Shown piece after piece: positions 9,639-31,913 of a DNA stretch of 33,441 nt; positions within the stretch are counted from its first letter, which is position 1, and each line of letters opens with the position of its first letter. The position numbers and the translations under genes were made by a program. The notes under the pieces are model-generated. The model was given only the letters and a program-made list of their open reading frames with translations. It did not search any database and was not told the DNA's origin. This stretch comes from an uncultured Ruminococcus sp. (GTDB taxonomy: Bacteria > Bacillota > Clostridia > Monoglobales > Monoglobaceae). The stretch spans positions 1-33,441 of the forward strand of contig CACWIG010000015.1 in assembly GCA_902760955.1 (NCBI GenBank). Direction: 5' to 3'.

Positions 9639-11050
9639 GTGATTGAAAACAAAAACTTCAAGCTGTTAATCAGTGAAGATTGCAGAGGGCAGAGTTTGAT
9701 ACATAAAGCGACAGGTGAAGAATGTCTGTTTGCTGATAAAAAAATGCCGATATTTTCCGTTACGGAAAAAAGACCATATAATAACGAAATCAAGCTTGCT
9801 TACCCTAACAAGTGTACAACTTTTTATGCAAACAGAGTACGCAGAGAACAAGATCGTCTGATTATAGGATTCGAATTGGTTTTGTTTGAGGCGGTTGTTC
9901 AAATAAAGGAAAATGACGATTATATTGCCTTCGTTCTTGAGAAATTTATAGTTGAGCCAGAGCATTTTGAAGGGCTTATATTAGATACACCACCTGTTGA
10001 AGAATTCAGACTTTTACAGCTCCCAATAAAGAAAAGAACATCTTTTGGGCAGTGGCTCAATGTATGTTTTGATGGGAAAATTGCTGTGAATTTGCTTGCA
10101 GCATCTCCGTGCGAGCGAATTGACAGTGTAGAAGAGGATGAATATTACATTCTGACTGCGGACGCAGTAAGAGATATTAAACTAAAGGGTGCTGAGGCAG
10201 CGTTGATTGTGACGTAAAAAAGCAGGCTTTTAGACAGTATAGAAAAATTTGAAGGAGATTACAATTTGCCAAAAGGCGTGAAAAGCCGACGCTCCAAAGA
10301 GATAAATTCATCTATTTATTGGACGAGGGATATATCTCCGCAAAATGTGGAACAGCATATTTCGTATATGAAAAAATGCGGATTTACAAAGGCTCAAATC
10401 TTTTTTCCTGCGATATTTCAATCCGATGTGCAATATTCCGGCATAGTCGAGTATAAGATTAACAAAAATTTCCGAACGGAATTGAAGATTTAAAGAAAAT
10501 GCTTGACAGGCTTAAAGAAGAAGGTATTGCTCCAGGACTTCATATTCTTCATACTCATATTGGATTTCATACGCCGTATTTAACGCCGTCAGCCGACAGC
10601 CGTATCAACCTTACAAGGTTCTTTACCTTAGCTAAACCTTTACTCAAAACGGACGATAAAATTTATGTGGAAGAAAATCCCTGTGGTGCGGTTATGCACG
10701 AAAAATGCAGAGTGTTGAATTTCGGCGGAGAGCTGATACACTATGACGGATACACAACAGAGTGGCCATACTTTTTTTATGGATGTAAAAGGGGCTTTAA
10801 TGATACCGATGTTAAGGAATGTAGCAAAGGAACAATTGGCGGTATACTCGACATAAGCGAGTACGGTGCAGGAAGTGCATATATAAATCAAAATACAGTA
10901 TTGCAGGATGAAATAGACGGTCCACCGATTGTGTGCCAAACAGCAAACAAAAAGACAGTTTTGCCGTTATCCAAGAGAAGATATTTTTCGTCCGCTCTTC
11001 CTAAAGAGAAAATAAAGGAAATATTTGAAAATGCGATTTTAGAGCAGTAA
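9639..11050 (+). pseudogene. Broken glycoside-hydrolase-like gene with a nonsense codon and a frameshift
   Basis: Three reading-frame pieces form one former gene. Piece 1 (9639-10214) is a beta-rich domain. It is stopped by TAA at 10215-10217, but the same frame continues as LLDSIEKFEGDYNLPKGVKS into piece 2, which shows SSIYWTRDISPQNVEQHISYMKKCGF, a barrel-like start. At the run of five A's (10464-10468) the frame is lost. Adding one base there gives NKKFPNGIEDLKKMLDRLKE and runs straight into piece 3 (10499-11050). Piece 3 contains EEGIAPGLHIL, EENPCGAV and GCKRGF, as I remember from large uncharacterised (beta/alpha)8 hydrolase-like proteins. The C-terminus also looks short for that family. 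It starts at GTG or ATA with GAGGGTGAAAG upstream. I cannot assign a GH number. It lies beside alpha-galactosidase and mutarotase genes. Confidence 0.75.
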
Positions 11051-11462: not shown

Positions 11463-11471
11463 ATAGAAAGA

Positions 11472-11560
11472 ATATTGAGTGGGAGCTTGTGTCACAGGCT
11501 GAGAGGAAGGTGTAACCTTCGACCGAGAACCTGATTTGGATAATGCCAACGTAGGGATAT
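11472..11560 (+). ncRNA. TPP riboswitch (THI element)
   Basis: The conserved THI-box parts occur in order: GGGAGC, GGCTGAGAGG, a short variable hairpin, CGACCGAGAACCTGATTTGG, then ATAATGCCAACGTAGGGA. The flanking ATAT pairs close P1. It binds thiamine pyrophosphate and sits before an intrinsic terminator and thiC. High TPP should therefore end the transcript early. Confidence 0.97.
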
Positions 11561-11588
11561 CTGATATACAACTATCGGGATAACAAAT

Positions 11589-12994: not shown

Positions 12995-13086
12995 TTTTTG
13001 ATAAAAAGATATTGAAAAGTTTTCAAAATATTTTATTATAAGACATAAAACACCTATGTTCCTTTACATATGGTGGGAATTATAAG

Positions 13087-13165
13087 TCCGAAATAATTTT
13101 AGTGAAAGATTGCCCCTCACCCATACAGTTGCCAAGCACAACTGCAATGAAGAAATTATTTCGGA
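13087..13165. repeat. Palindromic intergenic repeat, copy 1 (79 bp)
   Basis: The ends are inverted copies of each other: TCCGAAATAATTTTAGTGAA on the left and AAATTATTTCGGA on the right. Inside, CAGTTG and CAACTG form a second hairpin. The same ends and several inner blocks (TTGCCC, CCCATA, AACTGCA) recur at 25421-25521. It resembles a small non-autonomous inverted-repeat element. Confidence 0.7.
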
Positions 13166-13221
13166 TATTCCACATCTGTATTAGTTGTAGCCCTCTTTAC
13201 GTAAAGAGAGTCAATTGTGCG

Positions 13222-13266
13222 AAACCCCACAAACACAACTCGTTTGAGTAATGTTTGTGGGGTTTT
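13222..13266 (+). terminator. Intrinsic terminator after thiC
   Basis: AAACCCCACAAAC (13222-13234) is perfectly complementary to GTTTGTGGGGTTT (13253-13265), and T's follow. It ends the thiC transcript, 230 bp after the stop. Confidence 0.85.
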
Positions 13267-13301
13267 ATGTATTTTGGCGTAGTCATTTGTCTAATGAATT
13301 A

Positions 13302-13330
13302 TTGACATATAATACGACTTGTGCTATTAT
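13302..13330 (+). promoter_or_regulatory. Sigma-A promoter for the sulfite reductase fusion operon
   Basis: Consensus TTGACA (13302-13307) and TATTAT (13325-13330) are 17 bp apart. It should drive the fusion gene and the three coupled transporter genes. The leader is about 65 nt. Confidence 0.75.
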
Positions 13331-13402: not shown

Positions 13403-15973
13403 ATGAAAGTAGTAGTTATTGGCGGTGTTGCGGCGGGTACAAAGGCTGCGGCAAAAATCAAACGTGAAGACCGTTCGGCACAGGTTGATATTTACACAAA
13501 GAGCAGTGATATTTCATATGCAGGTTGCGGTCTGCCTTATTATGTGGGTGGCGATATAGAAACACGTGACGAGCTTATTGTAAACACTCCCGAAAAATTT
13601 GCCTCACTGACAGGTGCGTCGGTTCACATCGGTCAAGAAGCAACGGAGGTTGATCCAAAAGCAAAAACAGTTGTTTTTAAGAATGCATTTGACGGCACAC
13701 AAAAGACAGTTGAATACGATAAATTGATAATTGCAAGCGGTGCTTCTCCGATTATTCCCAATATAGACGGAGTAAAGCTTGAAGGCGTATTTGCAGTCCG
13801 CACACCTGATGACGCCATTGCAATGCGTAATTATATAGAAAAGAATAACTGCAAAAAGGCGATTGTTGTGGGTGCAGGCTTTATCGGTATGGAAATGGCT
13901 GAAAATCTTATGGCACAAAATTTGTCGGTAACAGTCGTTGATATGGAACATCAGATACTTCCCAATATTCTTGACTCTGAGATGGCAGGATATGCTGCGA
14001 GAAATCTTCGTAAGCTGGGTATGAAAATTATGACGGGAACAACTGTTTCTGCCATAAAGGGCGAAAATTCAGTAACGGGACTTTTGACAAGCTCGGGCGA
14101 ACTTCAGGCAGATATTGTTGTATTGAGTATAGGTATCCGTCCTTCAACCGATTTCGTTGCAAATACGGGAATTGAGATGATTAAAGGTGCCATTGTCGTT
14201 GACGAATATCAGAAGTCAACCATTGACGATATATATGCAGCAGGGGATTGTGCCATTGTTAAAAATCGCATAACAGGTAAGCCTCAATGGTCTGCTATGG
14301 GTTCAACTGCAAATATTACAGCACGTTGCCTTGCAAAGACACTTACGGGAACAACAACTTCTTACGGTGGTTGCCTTGGGACAGGTGTTGTCAAGCTGTC
14401 ACAAAACTTAGGTGCAGGACGTACGGGATTTTCCGAAGAACAGGCAATACAGGCAGGCTATAATGTTGAAACAGTTGTATGTGTCAGTGACGACAAGGCA
14501 CACTACTATCCTGACTCGTCTGTGTTTGTAACAAAACTCATTGCGGACAAAAATACTGAAAAGCTCTTGGGTATGCAGGTTATTGGTGGCGGAGCGGTTG
14601 ACAAAATGACTGATATTGCAGTTGTCGGAATTTCTGCAGGACTTAAGGTTGGTGATTTTGATACAATGGATATGGCGTATGCACCGCCGTTTTCTACTGC
14701 AATTCACCCATTTGTTCAGGCTTGTTACGTGCTTCAGAATAAGATGAGCGGAGCTTTTGAAACATTTACACCTGCTGAATACCTTGCAGGAAAAGCAAAA
14801 GGCTATCGTGTTATAGATGTACAGCCTGAGGCTAAAATCTTCGGTGCAACCTGGGTTAACTTAGGTCAGGTTAATGGCGAGATTGACGGCATAGGCAAGG
14901 ATGAAAAACTGCTTTTGGTCTGCACAAGAGGTAAAAGAGGTTACTTCCTTCAGAACCGCTTGAAGCACTATGGCTACACCAATACAAAAGTTTTGGAGGG
15001 CGGTGAGTTCTTCAATATTGTAAAGGTTGAAAACCCTGTGGGAGCTTTATCTCCTGCGGAGATTAAGAGGGTTAAAGGGCTTGGCTGTCTACAGGACAAG
15101 CGTTACGGAGACGTGTTCAATGTCAGAGTAATCACCAAAAACGGAAAGATTACTGCGGCTGAACAACGTACTATTGCACAGGCGGCTGAAAAGTTCGGAA
15201 GCGGCGAGGTTACTATGACTTCGCGACTCACCTTAGAAATTCAGGGTGTTCATTATTCAAATATCGAAGATGCTATTGCATACCTTAACGAAAACGGCTT
15301 GATTACAGGCGGTACGGGTTCTCTTGTTCGCCCTGTTGTTTCTTGTAAGGGTACAACCTGCCAATACGGACTTATTGACACATTTGGATTGAGTGAAAAG
15401 ATACACAATAGATTTTATCTCGGTTATCACGATGTTACACTGCCTCATAAGTTTAAAATAGCAGTTGGTGGATGTCCTAACAACTGTGTAAAACCTGACC
15501 TCAACGACTTGGGAATTGTAGGTCAGCGTGTACCGCTTTTAGACGTTGAAAAGTGCAGAGGCTGTAAAAAGTGTCAGGTTGAGAACAACTGTCCGATAAA
15601 AGCCGCAAAGATTGAAGACGGCAAAATTGTAATAGGTGCTGATTGCAACAACTGCGGACGTTGTAAGGATAAATGTCCCTTTGGTGCTATTCCCGAATAC
15701 ACAAACGGATATAAGGTATATATTGGCGGCAGATGGGGCAAGAAGTATGCAAACGGCAGACCGCTTGAGAAGGTATTTACATCAGAGGAAGAGGTTATGG
15801 ACATTGTCGAAAGTGCAATTCTTTTATTCCGCGACGAAGGTATATCAGGCGAGCGATTTGCGGATACAATTAAGCGTTTGGGCTTTGAATATGTGCAGGA
15901 CAAGCTGTTAAATAATAAAATCGATAAGTCTGCTATTCTCAACAAAACAGTAAAAGGCGGTGCAACTTGTTAA
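13403..15973 (+). CDS. FAD/NAD disulfide reductase - rhodanese - sirohaem sulfite reductase - ferredoxin fusion
   Basis: One 856-residue polypeptide carries four modules. Residues 1-450 are a CoA-disulfide reductase/NADH oxidase-type flavoprotein: GGVAAGTKAAAK binds FAD, and C42 in YAGCGLPYY is the redox cysteine. Residues 455-545 are a rhodanese domain with active-site loop CTRGKR (C507). Residues 560-715 are a sulfite/nitrite reductase half with C648-x4-C653 and C691-x3-C695, which should hold the coupled 4Fe-4S and sirohaem. The first spacing is one shorter than the usual x5. Residues 716-775 hold two 4Fe-4S ferredoxin motifs (CRGCKKC...CP and CNNCGRCKDKCP). A plausible flow is NAD(P)H to FAD to Fe-S to sirohaem, reducing sulfite or a persulfide to sulfide; this is inferred. 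It has GTGAGG before ATG, and its stop overlaps the next start (TAATG). Confidence 0.85.
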   Translation: MKVVVIGGVAAGTKAAAKIKREDRSAQVDIYTKSSDISYAGCGLPYYVGGDIETRDELIVNTPEKFASLTGASVHIGQEATEVDPKAKTVVFKNAFDGTQKTVEYDKLIIASGASPIIPNIDGVKLEGVFAVRTPDDAIAMRNYIEKNNCKKAIVVGAGFIGMEMAENLMAQNLSVTVVDMEHQILPNILDSEMAGYAARNLRKLGMKIMTGTTVSAIKGENSVTGLLTSSGELQADIVVLSIGIRPSTDFVANTGIEMIKGAIVVDEYQKSTIDDIYAAGDCAIVKNRITGKPQWSAMGSTANITARCLAKTLTGTTTSYGGCLGTGVVKLSQNLGAGRTGFSEEQAIQAGYNVETVVCVSDDKAHYYPDSSVFVTKLIADKNTEKLLGMQVIGGGAVDKMTDIAVVGISAGLKVGDFDTMDMAYAPPFSTAIHPFVQACYVLQNKMSGAFETFTPAEYLAGKAKGYRVIDVQPEAKIFGATWVNLGQVNGEIDGIGKDEKLLLVCTRGKRGYFLQNRLKHYGYTNTKVLEGGEFFNIVKVENPVGALSPAEIKRVKGLGCLQDKRYGDVFNVRVITKNGKITAAEQRTIAQAAEKFGSGEVTMTSRLTLEIQGVHYSNIEDAIAYLNENGLITGGTGSLVRPVVSCKGTTCQYGLIDTFGLSEKIHNRFYLGYHDVTLPHKFKIAVGGCPNNCVKPDLNDLGIVGQRVPLLDVEKCRGCKKCQVENNCPIKAAKIEDGKIVIGADCNNCGRCKDKCPFGAIPEYTNGYKVYIGGRWGKKYANGRPLEKVFTSEEEVMDIVESAILLFRDEGISGERFADTIKRLGFEYVQDKLLNNKIDKSAILNKTVKGGATC

Positions 15974-16932
15974 TGAAACTAATAAGACAATTAACTGCAT
16001 TGGTTATGGCTATGACGCTCTTAACTTTTTGCGGATGTACTTCAAATAATCAAAAGGATATTACAACGGCTGAAAATGCTGATACGATAACTTTTACCGA
16101 TGATTTGGAAAGGGAAGTTACTGTAAGCAAAAGTCCGCAAAATGTTGCGGCACTTATCGGAAGTTTTGCAGATGTGTGGATTCTTGCAGGAGGCAGTATA
16201 TGTGCCGCACCCGAAGATGCGTGGAGTGACTTTGGGCTTGAACTTGGCGACGCGGTAAACCTTGGCGGAGCACATTCTCCGTCATTGGAACAGTTGCTTT
16301 CGGCAGAACCTGATTTTGTTATAGCAAGTGCATCTACTGCGGCTGATGTGGATATGAAGGACGTTCTTGAAAACGCAGGAATTGCCGTTGCATATTTTGA
16401 TGTTGATTGCTTTGAAGATTACCTTAATATGCTGAATGTTTGTACGGATATAACGGGCAGAAAAGATTTATATGAACAAAACGGCTTAAATATTCAAAAG
16501 AAGATTGATAATATCAGGGAAAATATGAATAATAAAAATGTTCCCGAAAAAAAGAAGACCGTTCTTATGCTGAGAGCCGCTTCGGGCTTTGTCAAAGCAA
16601 AGGGCAGTAAGGGGACAATTTTAGGTGAGATGCTTTCTGATATGGGGTGTATCAATATCGCAGACAGCGATAAGAGTCTGCTTGAAAATTTAAGTATAGA
16701 GAGTATCGTAAATGCTAATCCCTATCATATTTTTGTTGTAACAATGGGTGATGATACGGAGGCGGCAAAGGGAAGTCTGTCCAGAATGATGGAGGAAAAC
16801 CCTGCTTGGAATGACCTTGATGCAGTAAAAGAAAACAGAATGCATTTTATGGATAAAAAGCTGTTTAATCTGAAACCAAATGCACGATGGGCGGATGCGT
16901 ATGAACAACTTTATGAAATCTTGCAAAAATAA
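15973..16932 (+). CDS. ABC importer substrate-binding lipoprotein (FecB/BtuF type)
   Basis: The protein has 319 residues with a lipoprotein signal: a short basic start, a hydrophobic stretch and the lipobox FCGC with C22 as lipidation site. The mature part has the two-lobed fold of class III binding proteins: ITFTDDLEREVTV at the front, EPDFVIASAS in the middle and a DMGCINIADS region near the back. Members bind iron-siderophores, haem, cobalamin or related cofactors. The ligand cannot be told from the sequence. It starts inside the stop of the sulfite reductase fusion (TAATG), so it is translationally coupled. The coupling suggests uptake of iron or a tetrapyrrole for that enzyme, which is inference. 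Confidence 0.88.
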   Translation: MKLIRQLTALVMAMTLLTFCGCTSNNQKDITTAENADTITFTDDLEREVTVSKSPQNVAALIGSFADVWILAGGSICAAPEDAWSDFGLELGDAVNLGGAHSPSLEQLLSAEPDFVIASASTAADVDMKDVLENAGIAVAYFDVDCFEDYLNMLNVCTDITGRKDLYEQNGLNIQKKIDNIRENMNNKNVPEKKKTVLMLRAASGFVKAKGSKGTILGEMLSDMGCINIADSDKSLLENLSIESIVNANPYHIFVVTMGDDTEAAKGSLSRMMEENPAWNDLDAVKENRMHFMDKKLFNLKPNARWADAYEQLYEILQK

Positions 16933-17920
16933 AAAAATCGTATTATTATATGCTGCTGCAATTACACTTTTGATAGTATCTTTTTTGCTTGGAATTATGT
17001 TGGGAAGCACTTCCGTTTCATTTGCGGATATATGGGGTGCAATTATAAATCGCAATGGTACAGGCAGTGGTACACGTATATTTTGGTATGTAAGATTGCC
17101 GAGAATATGTGCCTGCCTTGTCTGTGGCGGTGCGCTTTCGGTATCGGGTGCGGTTATACAAGGGGTGCTTGCCAACAGACTTGCATCGCCCAGCATTTTG
17201 GGCGTAAATTCAGGTGCAGGGCTTGCGGTTATATTATGCACAGCCTTTGAAATCTATGGGGGTTGGCCGCTTTCTGCATTTTCGTTCTTGGGGGCATTTG
17301 CCGCTGTTATGCTTGTAAGTATATGTTCGCGAAAGTTAGGAGCATCACGCGGTACGGTAATTTTACTTGGTGTTGCTCTTAACAGCTTGCTGAATGCTGT
17401 TTCGGATACTGTGATTACATTTAAACCCGAAGTTGGTTTTATGAGCAGTAATTTTAAGATTGGCGATTTTTCTGCGGTTACCTACCCGAAGTTAATCCCT
17501 GTGGCTGTTGTTGTAATAGTGACAATAATTATTTTATTAACGCTGACTAACGAGCTTGATATTCTTACTCTCGGAGATGATAATGCCAAAGGTCTTGGAA
17601 TGAACACAGGGTTTATGCGAACGCTGTTTTTACTGTTTGCCGCTCTGCTTGCAGGTTGTGCGGTAAGCCTTGCAGGTTTGCTTTCGTTTGTAGGATTGAT
17701 AGTACCTCATATCGTAAGGCGAATTTCAGACAACAAAGCTTCGCATCTTTTGCCGCTGTGTGCTATATTTGGTGCGGCGTTTGTTGCCCTGTGCGATACA
17801 ATATCCCGAACTGTTTTTTCACCTTACGAAATACCCGTTGGTATTATTATGGCGTTCCTTGGGGCACCTTTCTTTATATTTATTTTGGTAAAAGGGAAGG
17901 GAGGTCACGCCCGTGATTGA
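16901..17920 (+). CDS. FecCD-family ABC importer permease
   Basis: This is a strongly hydrophobic protein of about 339 residues with roughly ten membrane segments. It carries FecCD landmarks: RLPRICACLVCGGALSVSGAVIQGVLANRLASPSILGVNSGAGL across the second and third helices (described, not quoted in full, in databases as the family core), LAGLLSFVGLIVPHIVRR and a late EIPVGIIMAFLGAPFF. It forms the membrane channel of the cofactor or siderophore importer. It overlaps the end of the binding-protein gene. The exact start is uncertain: ATGs at 16880, 16895, 16901 and 16913 are in frame, and 16901 has a weak GGGCGG before it. Confidence 0.9.
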   Translation: MNNFMKSCKNKKIVLLYAAAITLLIVSFLLGIMLGSTSVSFADIWGAIINRNGTGSGTRIFWYVRLPRICACLVCGGALSVSGAVIQGVLANRLASPSILGVNSGAGLAVILCTAFEIYGGWPLSAFSFLGAFAAVMLVSICSRKLGASRGTVILLGVALNSLLNAVSDTVITFKPEVGFMSSNFKIGDFSAVTYPKLIPVAVVVIVTIIILLTLTNELDILTLGDDNAKGLGMNTGFMRTLFLLFAALLAGCAVSLAGLLSFVGLIVPHIVRRISDNKASHLLPLCAIFGAAFVALCDTISRTVFSPYEIPVGIIMAFLGAPFFIFILVKGKGGHARD

Positions 17921-18674
17921 AATAAAAGACCTGTCATTTGGATATGGAAAAAATAATGTTCTGCAAAATTTTTCCGTATGCTTTGAAAAAGGAAAACTCA
18001 CATCAATAACAGGCACGAACGGCTCGGGTAAAAGTACGTTGCTTAAAACGATTATAGGAATTTTGCCATCGAATACGGGCGAAATTCTGATTGACGGCAC
18101 ATCATTGTCGTCCCTTAAGCCTCAGGAAATCGCAAAAAAAATATCATATCTTGCACAAGGTAAGAATACCCCTGATATGACAGCGTTTCAAATGGTGCTT
18201 CACGGCAGATTTCCGCATTTGAACTATCCTCGCCGATACTCACAAAAGGACCGTGATGCAGCATATAGTGCAATGGAGCGTATGGGTATTTCCGACTATG
18301 CAGATAAAAGTATGGTATCGCTGTCGGGCGGTATGCGGCAAAATGTTTATATTGCAATGGCGTTGGCACAGGACACAGATTATATTTTGTTAGATGAACC
18401 TACAACCTATTTGGATATCTCTCATCAGCTTCATTTGATGAAAACTCTGCGGACTCTTGTCGACGACGGAAAGGGAATAATAACGGTTATGCACGACTTG
18501 CCTATGGCATTTAATTTCTCTGATAATATCGCAGTTGTAAGCGGAGGAAAAGCCGTTATATGCTCTTCTCCACAGGAAGTTTATAAAAATAATACTATTA
18601 AAGACATTTTCGGAATTGAGCTTAAATATTCACAAGATGAAGAAAATTATTATTACGGTTATAATCATAAGTAA
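17913..18674 (+). CDS. ABC importer ATP-binding subunit (FepC/BtuD type)
   Basis: This 253-residue ATPase drives the FecCD-type importer. Walker A is GTNGSGKST, the Q-loop is in SYLAQGK, the signature is LSGGMRQ, Walker B is YILLDEPT and the switch histidine is in TVMHDLPMA. The start is GTG with GGAGG 8 nt upstream, overlapping the permease gene by 8 bp. Binding protein, permease and ATPase are all present, so the importer is complete. It is the last gene of the four-gene unit; a terminator follows at 18682. Confidence 0.95.
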   Translation: MIEIKDLSFGYGKNNVLQNFSVCFEKGKLTSITGTNGSGKSTLLKTIIGILPSNTGEILIDGTSLSSLKPQEIAKKISYLAQGKNTPDMTAFQMVLHGRFPHLNYPRRYSQKDRDAAYSAMERMGISDYADKSMVSLSGGMRQNVYIAMALAQDTDYILLDEPTTYLDISHQLHLMKTLRTLVDDGKGIITVMHDLPMAFNFSDNIAVVSGGKAVICSSPQEVYKNNTIKDIFGIELKYSQDEENYYYGYNHK

Positions 18675-18681
18675 TAGATTA

Positions 18682-18730
18682 ATACCATTTATATTGAAAA
18701 TTATTTTTCGGTATAGATGGTATTTTTTTG
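18682..18730 (+). terminator. Intrinsic terminator of the sulfite reductase/importer operon
   Basis: ATACCATTTATA (18682-18693) pairs with TATAGATGGTAT (18712-18723) with one wobble, followed by a run of seven or eight T's. Confidence 0.85.
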
Positions 18731-18848: not shown

Positions 18849-19399
18849 ATGGCTCAGAGATTTGTTCTGAACGAAACAAGTTACCACGGAAAAGGTGCGA
18901 TTGCTGAAATCGCAAATGAAGTTAAAGGCAGAGGCTTTAAAAAGTGCTTTGTATGTTCTGACCCTGATTTGATTAAGTTTAACGTCACTAAAAAGGTTAC
19001 CGATATTCTCGATAATGCCTCGATAGACTATGAGATTTATTCAGACATTAAAGCTAACCCAACTATCGAAAATGTACAATCGGGCGTTAGTGCTTTCAAG
19101 GCATCAGGTGCAGATTGTATAGTTGCAATCGGCGGCGGTTCTTCAATGGACACAGCTAAGGCAATCGGAATAATTGTTAAAAATCCTGAGTTTGCAGATG
19201 TTGTATCATTAGAGGGTGTTGCACCTACCAAGAATAAGTGTGTGCCGATAATTGCTGTTCCGACAACAGCGGGTACTGCGGCTGAGGTTACAATTAACTA
19301 TGTTATTACAGATGCCGCTAAGAACAGAAAGATGGTTTGTGTTGATGTTCACGATATACCTGTCGTTGCTGTTGTTGACCCTGATATGATGTCATCAAT
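18849..19399 (+). pseudogene. fucO: fucO-type iron alcohol dehydrogenase, N-terminal half (interrupted)
   Basis: Residues 1-183 match the front of FucO-type lactaldehyde/1,2-propanediol oxidoreductases (group III, iron-dependent). They contain FVLNETSYHGKGAI, the NAD-binding GGGSSMDTAKAIG, IPTTAGT-like AVPTTAGTAAEVT and the first metal-ligand region near VVDPDMMSS. At CAAT (19396-19399) the sequence switches to foreign DNA. The frame then runs 13 more codons (IWICRILSKGVFI) to a stop. The C-terminal half resumes at 21050. Excising 19400-21051 joins TCATCA to ATGCCT and gives DPDMMSSMPKGLTAATG, the expected family sequence. The enzyme would reduce lactaldehyde during fucose or rhamnose fermentation. 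As it stands the gene cannot give a full enzyme. Confidence 0.92.
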
Positions 19400-19435
19400 A
19401 TGGATATGTCGAATATTATCGAAAGGAGTTTTTAT

Positions 19436-20164
19436 ATGAAATCTATAAAAATTAATTCAAATGGAGTAAAGATGATAGCACATAGAGGTTTAAGCGGTAT
19501 TGAAAGAGAGAATACTTGTCCTGCATTTGTTGCGGCGGGAAATAGGAGTTATTTTGGTATAGAAACAGATGTGCACGTCACCAAAGATAGTAAATTTGTA
19601 ATTATTCATGATGAAACAACCGAAAGAATTTCCTCAGGGGAATACAGTATAAATGTAGAAGAAAGTGACTATTCGGAAGTCGAAAAAATTGTGCTACCTG
19701 ATTTAGATGGTACAACAGACAGAAAAGATATTAGAATACCTCTTTTGAGTGAATATATCAAGATTTGCAAAAAATATGAAAAAACTTGTGTACTCGAAAT
19801 AAAAAATCATTTTGATGAGCCCTATATAGAGAGATTGAAAGATGAAATCAAAGAACTGGAATACATAGACAAGATTATTTTTATTTCATTTGATTTTGAA
19901 AACTGTGTTAATGTCAAAAAGCTTCTTCCTGAAAATGATGTTCAATTCCTTTATTCAAAGGAAATAACAGATGAATTAATAGAAAGAATATCTCAACATC
20001 ACCTTAACCTTGACATTTATTACAAACAATTAACTGCAGAAAATATTGAAAAATTACATTCAAAAGGAATCAAAGTTAACTGCTGGACCTGTGACGATAA
20101 AGAAGTTGCAGAAAAATTGGTTTCTTACGGAGTCGATTTTATAACCAGTAATATACTGGAATAA
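19436..20164 (+). CDS. Glycerophosphodiester phosphodiesterase family protein (inserted)
   Basis: The 242-residue protein has the GDPD fold. The N-terminal IAHRGLSGIERENTCPAF holds the HRG and E-N-T motifs. ETDVHVTKDSKFVIIHDETTERISSG holds the catalytic ExD metal site and the second histidine. The C-terminal strand pattern GIKVNCWTCDD...GVDFITSN is typical. Such enzymes hydrolyse glycerophosphodiesters to glycerol 3-phosphate and an alcohol. There is no signal peptide, so it should act in the cytoplasm. The start at 19436 has AAAGGAG upstream. An in-frame ATG sits exactly at the first inserted base (19400), but it has no ribosome site. It is the only gene of inserted unit A. Confidence 0.88.
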   Translation: MKSIKINSNGVKMIAHRGLSGIERENTCPAFVAAGNRSYFGIETDVHVTKDSKFVIIHDETTERISSGEYSINVEESDYSEVEKIVLPDLDGTTDRKDIRIPLLSEYIKICKKYEKTCVLEIKNHFDEPYIERLKDEIKELEYIDKIIFISFDFENCVNVKKLLPENDVQFLYSKEITDELIERISQHHLNLDIYYKQLTAENIEKLHSKGIKVNCWTCDDKEVAEKLVSYGVDFITSNILE

Positions 20165-20209
20165 TGTTTTTTGACTCTAACACTACATAAATTTGCCAGC
20201 AAAACGGGT

Positions 20210-20235
20210 TGCATCTAAACCTTATGTGTCGCAAT
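20210..20235 (+). repeat. 26-nt 3' motif, copy A
   Basis: The sequence is TGCATCTAAACC, then T, TATG, TG and TCGCAAT. It lies 45 bp after the phosphodiesterase stop, at the end of unit A. It can fold as a bulged hairpin: TTGCAT (from 20209) can pair with ATG...GCAA. TGCCA (about 20194) and TGGCA (about 20250) flank it as an outer inverted repeat. Confidence 0.75.
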
Positions 20236-20315
20236 AGCTAAAAACATTGGCATCAGGATTATACAATCTTTATACAAAAGATGTTATAAAAAACAATTTC
20301 AAGGAGGTTTAAATT

Positions 20316-21023
20316 ATGATTTGTGGAAAAAATAAGTTCATCACTTTTAGCTATGATGATGGGGTGACACAGGATAAGCAGCTGATTGAGATTTTTAATA
20401 AATATAATTTGAAGGCAACCTTTAATATTAATTCGGAACTTTTGGGACAACCCGGGGCGCTTGTGCGAAATGGTGTACGTATCAATCATATAAAAAATAA
20501 TCCGGAAGATGTGAAATACATATATGACGGTCATGAAGTTGCTGTTCATACATTAACACATCCTAATCTTGTAGATATCGAAGATGATAAAGAGGTGTTG
20601 CGCCAGGTTGAGCAGGATAGAGTTAATCTTTCTGAACTTGTGGGATATGAAGTAGAAGGTATGGCATACCCGTGCGGCGGTAAAAATTGTGATGCCCGTG
20701 TTGCTGATATTATAAAAAACAATACTATTATTAAATATGCACGCACGATTGATACGACTAAAAGTTTTGAGCCGTTTGATGATTTGTACCGGTATAAAGG
20801 AACTCTGTATCATCATGAAGATTGGGATATTCTTTTTGATATGGGAAAGAAATTCTTGGAATTGCAAACAGATACACCAAAGATTTTCTATATCTGGGGG
20901 CACGCATATGAATTTGATATTTATCCTGAACGATGGAATATGTTTGATGAATTTTGTAAAATGATGAGCAATCGTTCTGATATTTTTTATGGAACCAATA
21001 AAGAAGTATTAAGTGTAATTTAA
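20316..21023 (+). CDS. Polysaccharide deacetylase (NodB-like) family protein (inserted)
   Basis: The 235-residue protein has the carbohydrate esterase 4-type motifs in order. FSYDDG near the N-terminus stands in for TFDDG. HEVAVHTLTH holds the zinc-binding H-x3-H, and GMAYPCGG follows. A C-terminal WGHAYEFD may supply the last histidine. Such enzymes remove acetyl or similar groups from sugar polymers or related amides. There is no signal peptide, which is unusual for a wall-acting deacetylase, so an intracellular substrate is possible. The ribosome site AAGGAGG is strong. It is the only gene of inserted unit B, and its stop lies 3 bp before the second copy of the 26-nt motif. Confidence 0.85.
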   Translation: MICGKNKFITFSYDDGVTQDKQLIEIFNKYNLKATFNINSELLGQPGALVRNGVRINHIKNNPEDVKYIYDGHEVAVHTLTHPNLVDIEDDKEVLRQVEQDRVNLSELVGYEVEGMAYPCGGKNCDARVADIIKNNTIIKYARTIDTTKSFEPFDDLYRYKGTLYHHEDWDILFDMGKKFLELQTDTPKIFYIWGHAYEFDIYPERWNMFDEFCKMMSNRSDIFYGTNKEVLSVI

Positions 21024-21025
21024 CC

Positions 21026-21051
21026 TGCATCTAAACCGTATGCCTCGCAAT
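21026..21051 (+). repeat. 26-nt 3' motif, copy B
   Basis: The sequence is TGCATCTAAACC, then G, TATG, CC and TCGCAAT. It is identical to copy A at 23 of 26 positions. It sits directly at the right junction, and the next base is the G of the fucO methionine codon. Confidence 0.75.
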
Positions 21052-21649
21052 GCCTAAGGGCTTAACTGCCGCAACAGGTATGGATGCACTTACACACGCG
21101 ATTGAAGGTTATATTACATTGGGTGCTTGGGAAATGAGTGATATGTTCCACTTAAAAGCAATAGAGATTATTGCTAAGAGTCTTCGCGGTGCGGTTGAAA
21201 ATACCGACGAGGGCAGAGAAGGTATGGCTCTTGGTCAATACATTGCAGGTATGGGATTTTCAAATGTTGGTCTTGGAATAGTACATTCAATGGCACATCC
21301 TCTCGGTGCGGTTTATGATACTCCTCACGGCGTTGCAAACGCTATTATTCTTCCTACTGTTATGGAATATAATGCACCTGCAACAGGCGAAAAGTATCGT
21401 GACATTGCAAAGGCAATGGGTGTTGAAGGTGTTGACTCTATGAGTCTTGATGAAGCAAGAAAGGCGGCTGTTGATGCAGTTAGACAGCTTTCGGCTGATG
21501 TTGGTATTCCGTCTGACTTAAAGGATATCGTTAAGATGGAAGATATTGACTTCCTTGCTCAATCCGCATATGATGACGCTTGCCGTCCAGGTAACCCTCG
21601 CGAAACATCAGTTGAAGAAATCAAAGAACTTTATATGTCATTGCTGTAA
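21050..21649 (+). pseudogene. fucO: fucO-type iron alcohol dehydrogenase, C-terminal half
   Basis: From MPKGLTAATGMDALTHAIEG to the normal family end (SVEEIKELYMSLL) this is the catalytic half. It has the iron-ligand histidines in GMDALTHAIEG, GIVHSMAHPLGA and DTPHGVANAI. It is full and undamaged over about 199 residues and begins with an ATG formed partly from the insertion boundary, but there is no ribosome site at 21050. Together the two halves make about 382 residues, the normal FucO length. Because neither half shows other lesions, the insertion is probably recent or excisable. Confidence 0.9.
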
Positions 21650-31029: not shown

Positions 31030-31716
31030 TTATTTTATTCTATGCACCGTCGCTTTCAAAACTATGTATGTAATAACAGTTTGTATAGGAAGCTGTAATA
31101 GGTTCTTTATAATGCGTGAAGGCATTATTCCAATCAATCCGCTTCCTGCTGTGGGAGCAAGTGCAATGGAATTTAAAATTATATTTACAACCAATATTAT
31201 AATTGTATTTGTCACCAATATTCTGATAACAGTCGGTTTCTTTTTGTACAGCATCATACCATAGAGGATACCGCCAACACCTACACTCAATGTATAAGTA
31301 AACAAAAAACCGCCTGTGGGTTTGATTATAAACGCGGTAATATCTGATAATATCGCAACAATTCCGCCGATAATCGGCCCGAAAAGCGAGCCTGCAATAG
31401 GGGTTATGATAAAGCTAAAGCCTATCCTCAGATATGATGTAAAATCAATCGAAAAATAGTTGAGTATTACCTTTGCCGCAATAAGCATAGCGCATATTGC
31501 CAATGTCTTTGTCTGCTTGATTTGTTTTGAAAAGTCAGCACCGTTACGTAATATACCAAATGCCAGCATAATAATAAAAACAGATATTATTACAGCAGCA
31601 CCGATATTGAAGTTTGAAAATACATTTAAAAAGGAACTGACAGTTTCAAGTCCCATACGGATAACACCTTTGATGCTATCCATTGCTCCGTCAAAAACCG
31701 AAACAAAATTTTGCAT
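31030..31716 (-). CDS. folT: Folate ECF transporter S component (FolT)
   Basis: The 228-residue membrane protein binds folate for an energy-coupling factor importer. It has about six membrane helices; LRIGFSFIITPIAGSLFGPIIGGIVAILSDIT is the signature region (shortened: RIGFSF and GPIIGG) with the typical folate-type S-component pattern. The shared ATPase and EcfT units are not in the window. The ATG at 31716 has AAGGAGG 7 nt upstream. The THF riboswitch upstream independently supports a folate role. A longer in-frame reading to 31851 is only the riboswitch translated. Confidence 0.9.
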   Translation of the reverse strand: MQNFVSVFDGAMDSIKGVIRMGLETVSSFLNVFSNFNIGAAVIISVFIIMLAFGILRNGADFSKQIKQTKTLAICAMLIAAKVILNYFSIDFTSYLRIGFSFIITPIAGSLFGPIIGGIVAILSDITAFIIKPTGGFLFTYTLSVGVGGILYGMMLYKKKPTVIRILVTNTIIILVVNIILNSIALAPTAGSGLIGIMPSRIIKNLLQLPIQTVITYIVLKATVHRIK

Positions 31717-31719
31717 AAA

Positions 31720-31769
31720 AATACCTCCTTTTGATAATAACACTGCCTTACACAGCAAAAGAGGTATTT
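31720..31769 (-). promoter_or_regulatory. Anti-Shine-Dalgarno stem in front of folT
   Basis: On the minus strand AATACCTCTTTTG (31768-31756) is complementary, apart from one bulged base, to CAAAAGGAGGTATT (31733-31720), which contains the folT ribosome site. When formed, this stem would hide the ribosome site. It lies directly after the THF aptamer, so it is the probable expression platform, acting on translation. Confidence 0.65.
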
Positions 31770-31780
31770 CGATGTGTACA

Positions 31781-31890
31781 ACAGCGGGATGCGGCACCCA
31801 CACCGCGGTAAAACACTTCGTCCGACTGCCAACTCCCTGTGCAGACGGCACTGAAGACCATAAAGGTCAACGCGTGGATGCCTACTCTGT
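31781..31890 (-). ncRNA. Tetrahydrofolate (THF) riboswitch
   Basis: Read on the minus strand the conserved THF aptamer parts occur in order: ACAGAGTAGG, CCACGCGTT, a variable hairpin, GGACGAAG, ACCGCGGTG, then GCCGCATCCCGCTGT. ACAG and CTGT close P1. These agree with the known aptamer (GAGUAG, CGCGUU, CGCGGUG, GCAUCC blocks). It precedes folT. Confidence 0.9.
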
Positions 31891-31913
31891 ATGTTTATTT
31901 TTCGTAGATGATA

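Follow-up and report, generated by a model that had tools for sequence, protein, structure and literature searches.

The window analysed here, a stretch of 33,441 nucleotides from an uncultured Ruminococcus, belongs to a genome assembly of 1.5 Mb in 62 contigs that is about 80% complete. At 13403-15973 on the forward strand it holds an intact open reading frame of 856 amino acids, which we call FRS (fused flavoprotein-rhodanese-sulfite reductase). A CoADR/Npsr-like flavoprotein occupies amino acids 1-445 (13403-14737), with the active Cys42 encoded at 13526-13528. It is followed by a rhodanese domain at about amino acids 453-545 (14759-15037), whose C507 lies in a CTRGKR loop (14921-14923), and by a sulfite reductase half at amino acids 553-856 (15059-15970). 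This last part contains the motif C648-x4-C653 (15344-15361) as well as the sulfite-site residues R575, R643, K683 and K685; a ferredoxin with two 4Fe-4S sites is inserted into it between C718 and C758 (15554-15676).

The stop codon of FRS overlaps by one base the ATG of a Peripla_BP_2 binding lipoprotein (15973-16932; the mechanical ORF start is 15967), which couples FRS translationally to the genes that follow. These are a FecCD permease (16880-17920) and an ABC ATPase (17913-18674), likewise on the forward strand and overlapping each other, so that binding protein, permease and ATPase of a FecCD-type importer are found together. A predicted promoter-like site precedes the operon at 13302-13330 (TTGACA-17-TATTAT with TG, 11/12 in a consensus scan) and a terminator-like hairpin at 18681-18724 lies at its end, both on the forward strand. 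Before the promoter-like site there is a strongly structured stretch (13080-13272), which ends in a 15-bp hairpin with a T run and for which neither Rfam nor any fetched locus gave a convincing match or similarity. No known riboswitch was found upstream of FRS.

Several other features of the window deserve mention. A lactaldehyde-reductase-like gene (18849-21649) is split behind its codon 184, where an insert of approximately 1.65 kb (19400-21048) with a 4-base junction overlap is found; two related loci (L065 and L069) lack this insert. The insert looks cassette-like and consists of two units, each with one ORF (a glycerophosphodiester phosphodiesterase and a polysaccharide-deacetylase-like protein) followed by a 32-nt repeat; the two repeats (20210-20241 and 21026-21057) are 84% alike. 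Riboswitches for TPP (11471-11574, forward strand) and tetrahydrofolate (31780-31891, reverse strand) lie upstream of thiC and across the start of the ORF at 31030-31851, respectively. The neighbouring ORFs 9639-10217 and 10499-11050 have no Pfam matches at all.

That four modules share one chain, as the preliminary description had read it, is borne out by the ORF, by Pfam domains and by PDB matches. Pyr_redox_2 matches residues 1-289 and Pyr_redox_dim 337-434, the Rhodanese model matches 466-534 just below its cut-off (21.7 vs 22.2 bits), and NIR_SIR_ferr (567-630; 54.1 bits, cut-off 24) and NIR_SIR (639-835; 103.4 bits, cut-off 27) cover the C-terminal part. Among sequences of known structure, residues 1-542 match CoADR-rhodanese persulfide reductases and residues 566-829 match the F420-dependent sulfite reductase Fsr, with an E-value of 5.6e-39 for the last third of the chain. 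The model of the full chain is of fair quality (pLDDT 85.8, pTM 0.68); in a Foldseek search, whose list was taken up by matches to the flavoprotein half, its first 540 residues or so matched the persulfide reductases/CoADR-RHD 8a56, 6pfz, 3ict and 3nta with TM-scores of 0.88-0.94 on the target. The features by which CoADR-RHD enzymes are recognised, namely the CoADR fold, the C-terminal rhodanese, Cys42 and the rhodanese cysteine (PMC7969121), are all present. FRS falls below the curated cut-offs for CoA-disulfide reductase (TIGR03385, 382.6 vs 578.8 bits; NF007123, 397.4 vs 458 bits), for the anaerobic sulfite reductase subunit AsrC (TIGR02912, 92.9 vs 324.1 bits) and for NirB (TIGR02374, 209.2 vs 578.35 bits). 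Judged by its sequence, FRS combines a persulfide reductase of the NADH-dependent kind with a sirohaem-type sulfite reductase half, into which two 4Fe-4S clusters are inserted. The modules had also been described as normally separate proteins; this is only partly right, since CoADR with rhodanese and sulfite reductase with a two-cluster ferredoxin are already known as single chains.

The residues expected to act in catalysis are conserved throughout. An alignment of 47 fused homologues shows no exchange at Cys42, at C507, at the four cysteines assigned to the sirohaem-coupled cluster (648, 653, 691 and 695) or at the eight of the ferredoxin (718-758). Sulfite binding in Fsr involves Arg355, Arg423, Lys460 and Lys462, together with the assimilatory-type Arg388 (PMC10229431). 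These align with R575, R643, K683, K685 and R608 of FRS, of which the first four are invariant in the 47 homologues and the last is found in 46/47. Both the sulfite-site residues and all cluster cysteines are kept irrespective of whether the genome carries sirohaem-synthesis genes.

One departure from the canonical pattern had been pointed out before and proved to be a trait of the whole clade: instead of C-x5-C ... C-x3-C, FRS has C-x4-C ... C-x3-C, one residue shorter, with all four cysteines kept. All relatives with more than roughly 39% identity have the shorter spacing, whether or not they are fused, whereas more distant homologues have C-x5-C. Since the entire clade shares it, it is not a sequencing error; loss of function can be dismissed on the same grounds, as the motif is also found in a copy that lies inside a cluster for sirohaem synthesis and sulfate activation. 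In this cluster (L064), an unfused C-x4-C reductase is encoded among hemB, hemC, hemL, SUMT-HemD, the CysG N-terminal domain, cysD and cysN, surroundings which argue for sirohaem and an assimilatory role in that relative.

A scan with one genome per species yielded at least 80 loci with FRS relatives, and among those listed nearly all encode the same fused chain, with the same domain order and at nearly equal length. The fused chain therefore represents a family of wide distribution and is not peculiar to the window. It is recorded in Lachnospiraceae, Oscillospiraceae, Gemmiger, Flavonifractor, Erysipelotrichaceae and Spirochaetota such as Bullifex porci; among the matches listed, the closest named relatives are the "uncultured Ruminococcus" genomes RUG12270 (locus L065, 97%) and RUG13671 (locus L069, 95%), compared over the reductase half. 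Unfused relatives also exist, and in one genome (G146) the two halves are adjacent genes. Judged by eye from the starts of the neighbouring sequences, about 33 of the loci L065-L144 have a divergent LysR-type regulator upstream of FRS, and a few have genes for cysteine desulfurase, IscU-like and IscR-like proteins; no recurrent neighbour pointing to the sulfur source was seen there.

What the enzyme may do can be derived from its two better-known counterparts. Enzymes of the Npsr type pick up sulfur on an exposed rhodanese cysteine and hand it, by way of bound CoA, to the active cysteine on the FAD side (Cys42), where reduction with NADH releases sulfide (PMC7969121). By analogy, FRS would load C507 with sulfane sulfur, whether drawn from thiosulfate, from polysulfide or from a persulfide of low molecular mass, pass it on to the CoA/C42 site and release it as sulfide at the expense of NADH. 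Fsr reduces sulfite at its sirohaem, to which the inserted clusters deliver the electrons (PMC10229431); the C-terminal half of FRS would likewise convert sulfite into sulfide at its sirohaem-4Fe-4S centre, fed via the two inserted clusters. If thiosulfate were the substrate, each half would find one substrate in it and both sulfur atoms would end as sulfide. The preliminary description had instead proposed a self-contained reductase in which persulfide sulfur on C507 is reduced at the sirohaem. Of this reading, the domain order, the active-site residues and a complete sulfite-reductase site are supported; the proposed route, in contrast, mixes two chemistries, as Npsr reduces the rhodanese sulfur at Cys42 with NADH and sirohaem sites reduce sulfite. 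The existence of unfused reductases moreover implies that a donor other than the FAD half can serve the sirohaem.

The cell from which the window derives appears to be unable to make sirohaem. None of the 38 genomes of its family has CysG_N, which the model used does detect in 9/14 control genomes. The five reductase carriers of the family (G000, G034, G035, G036 and G019, the last being 99% complete) lack HemC and SUMT, four of them having just 25-27-bit SUMT matches that we take to be other methylases, and CbiX was not found in these five either. The search covered CysG_N, HemC, SUMT and CbiX. An artefact of genome incompleteness was considered and rejected, given that relatives that are 92% and 99% complete also lack the genes. 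More distant carriers of the fused protein (G119 and G298) possess HemC and SUMT. The preliminary description had named a lack of bound sirohaem, together with a lack of synthesis genes, as what would speak against its reading. The genomic half of this is what we observe, and it weakens that interpretation; the linked importer offers a way out.

The importer accompanies the reductase well beyond the window. Three family members (G019, G035 and G036) keep the order FRS, binding protein, FecCD permease, ATPase; in G034 the same three importer genes lie downstream of an unfused reductase, and in G428, a 99% complete genome without HemC, they precede one. No same-strand importer was found within 5 kb in the HemC carriers G119, G298, G146, G084, G366 and G135, where the contig was long enough (that of G146 measures 4.4 kb). 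We then drew on 50 further genomes with the fused reductase, picked by whether a same-strand importer neighbours it (26 present, 24 absent). HemC is found in 0/26 genomes with the neighbouring importer vs 19/24 without. Five apparent exceptions, which have neither HemC nor a same-strand importer at FRS, dissolved upon a whole-genome search: the binding protein is encoded in these five as well as in all 26, and in 0/19 of the HemC-bearing genomes (E <= 1e-25). In one genome (G455) it is split over two contigs, and at one locus (L124) the importer adjoins FRS but is divergent. Overall, the binding protein occurs in 31/31 genomes without HemC vs 0/19 with it (Fisher p 3.3e-14, a value that ignores kinship). 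In a tree of 56 fused proteins the importer/HemC trait changes at least eight times on supported branches, and importer and HemC switch together in all of eight independent supported pairs (sign test p 0.008). Within the family of the window, the binding protein is found in 5/5 genomes with the reductase and 0/33 without it; HemC is absent from all seven of these 33 in which it was sought. Taken together, these counts indicate that the importer is present where a reductase coincides with an inability to make tetrapyrroles.

We consider it probable that the operon at 13403-18674 encodes a sirohaem-dependent sulfur reductase along with an importer for its cofactor: the co-transcribed binding protein-FecCD-ATPase system would take up the compound with which the reductase is loaded. 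In the genome of the window the most likely ligand would be sirohaem itself, the simplest import for a clade without SUMT, CysG_N and CbiX. A single ligand for all species is unlikely, since SUMT, and in places even HemD, persists in some species that have no HemC. In HemC-lacking Flavonifractor, Gemmiger and some Lachnospiraceae, CysG (precorrin-2 dehydrogenase/chelatase plus SUMT) follows the ATPase within the operon, and its presence there suggests that uroporphyrinogen III is probably what is imported wherever CysG joins the operon. At two loci (L181 and L183) the CysG of the operon is part of a longer chain; the one at L181 (8333-10426, reverse strand) has HemD as its extra part, in a genome that does not encode HemC, so that this part should lack a substrate. 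Four genomes (G428, G451, G465 and G491) have CbiF-like matches without HemC and SUMT, and here import of sirohydrochlorin, also feeding B12 synthesis, is possible.

The CysG genes of these operons and the CbiF-like matches could also be read as signs that in all species the importer takes up some other compound of the pathway, perhaps an earlier one (uroporphyrinogen III, precorrin-2 or sirohydrochlorin), with undetected enzymes finishing sirohaem inside the cell. We hold this to be possible though rather unlikely: with no SUMT, CysG_N or CbiX in five genomes of the window's clade, only enzymes that are unknown or of the CbiK type could finish the cofactor there. The protein families of the importer leave room for other cargo as well, since they carry haem, B12 and ferric siderophores. 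The binding protein stays below the cut-off for the haem-binding lipoprotein IsdE (TIGR03659; 81.6 vs 298.65 bits), and the closest structure to its model (pLDDT 91.8) is haem-bound IsdE, with several siderophore binders within 1 Z unit, so that structure alone does not decide the ligand; its conserved basic residues (R49, R203, K/R210, K212, K303 and R307) would suit a ligand with many carboxylates. A general importer of haem, another porphyrin or ferric siderophores that merely accompanies the reductase, for instance by providing iron for its clusters, nevertheless seems improbable to us. It would be expected in HemC-lacking relatives without the reductase, but was seen in none of the 33 reductase-lacking family genomes, and an iron importer would be expected also beside the reductase of HemC-bearing genomes, where it was seen in none of 19. 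Least credible of all, in our estimation, is the idea of a reductase half that has given up sirohaem and relies on its iron-sulfur clusters, or that is a relic. The absence of sirohaem-synthesis genes would fit such a loss; against it stand the cluster cysteines and the four sulfite-site residues, which are retained with and without these genes, and the two genomes (G034 and G428) that keep an unfused reductase alone together with the importer.

Returning to the import of the cofactor, we lean towards a broader picture in which many Clostridia of the gut and rumen, along with some Spirochaetes, have no tetrapyrrole synthesis and yet use a sirohaem enzyme, obtaining sirohaem or a late precursor from their neighbours through a dedicated ABC importer that was repeatedly gained or lost. 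Organisms that use sirohaem are generally assumed to synthesise it themselves. In the open-access papers covered here we found no description of the three-part fusion, and no report of sirohaem uptake or of such a system importing tetrapyrroles of the uroporphyrin type. If the proposal is true, this would be the first uptake system for sirohaem, which would become a shared nutrient of anaerobic communities. If cells trade sirohaem, a census of sulfide-capable gut and rumen species that relies on its synthesis genes would miss many of them, and the supply of the cofactor would become a control point for sulfide formation.

The modules of FRS, and pairs of them, are already known. Its N-terminal 540 residues resemble the NADH-dependent persulfide reductases/CoADR-RHD of A. 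fulgidus (6pfz), E. faecalis (8a56), B. anthracis (3icr) and S. loihica (3nta) in fold, in the order of flavoprotein and rhodanese, in Cys42 and in the rhodanese cysteine; those enzymes end after the rhodanese, whereas FRS adds a sulfite reductase with ferredoxin. With Fsr (7np8, 7npa) it shares the make-up of a single-chain flavin enzyme with a sulfite reductase half and an inserted two-cluster ferredoxin, as well as the four sulfite-binding residues and the assimilatory-type arginine. Fsr differs in its F420H2 oxidase and extra N-terminal ferredoxin, in place of which FRS has the persulfide reductase, and in its C-x5-C motif, which is C-x4-C in FRS. NirB likewise unites an NAD(P)H flavoprotein and a sirohaem reductase in one chain; to our knowledge, a rhodanese and an inserted 4Fe-4S ferredoxin are not among its features. 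The importer, for its part, is like the IsdE-type haem importers of the FecCD class in fold and gene make-up, and is set apart from them by a genome pattern that ties it to a sirohaem-dependent reductase and the absence of HemC.
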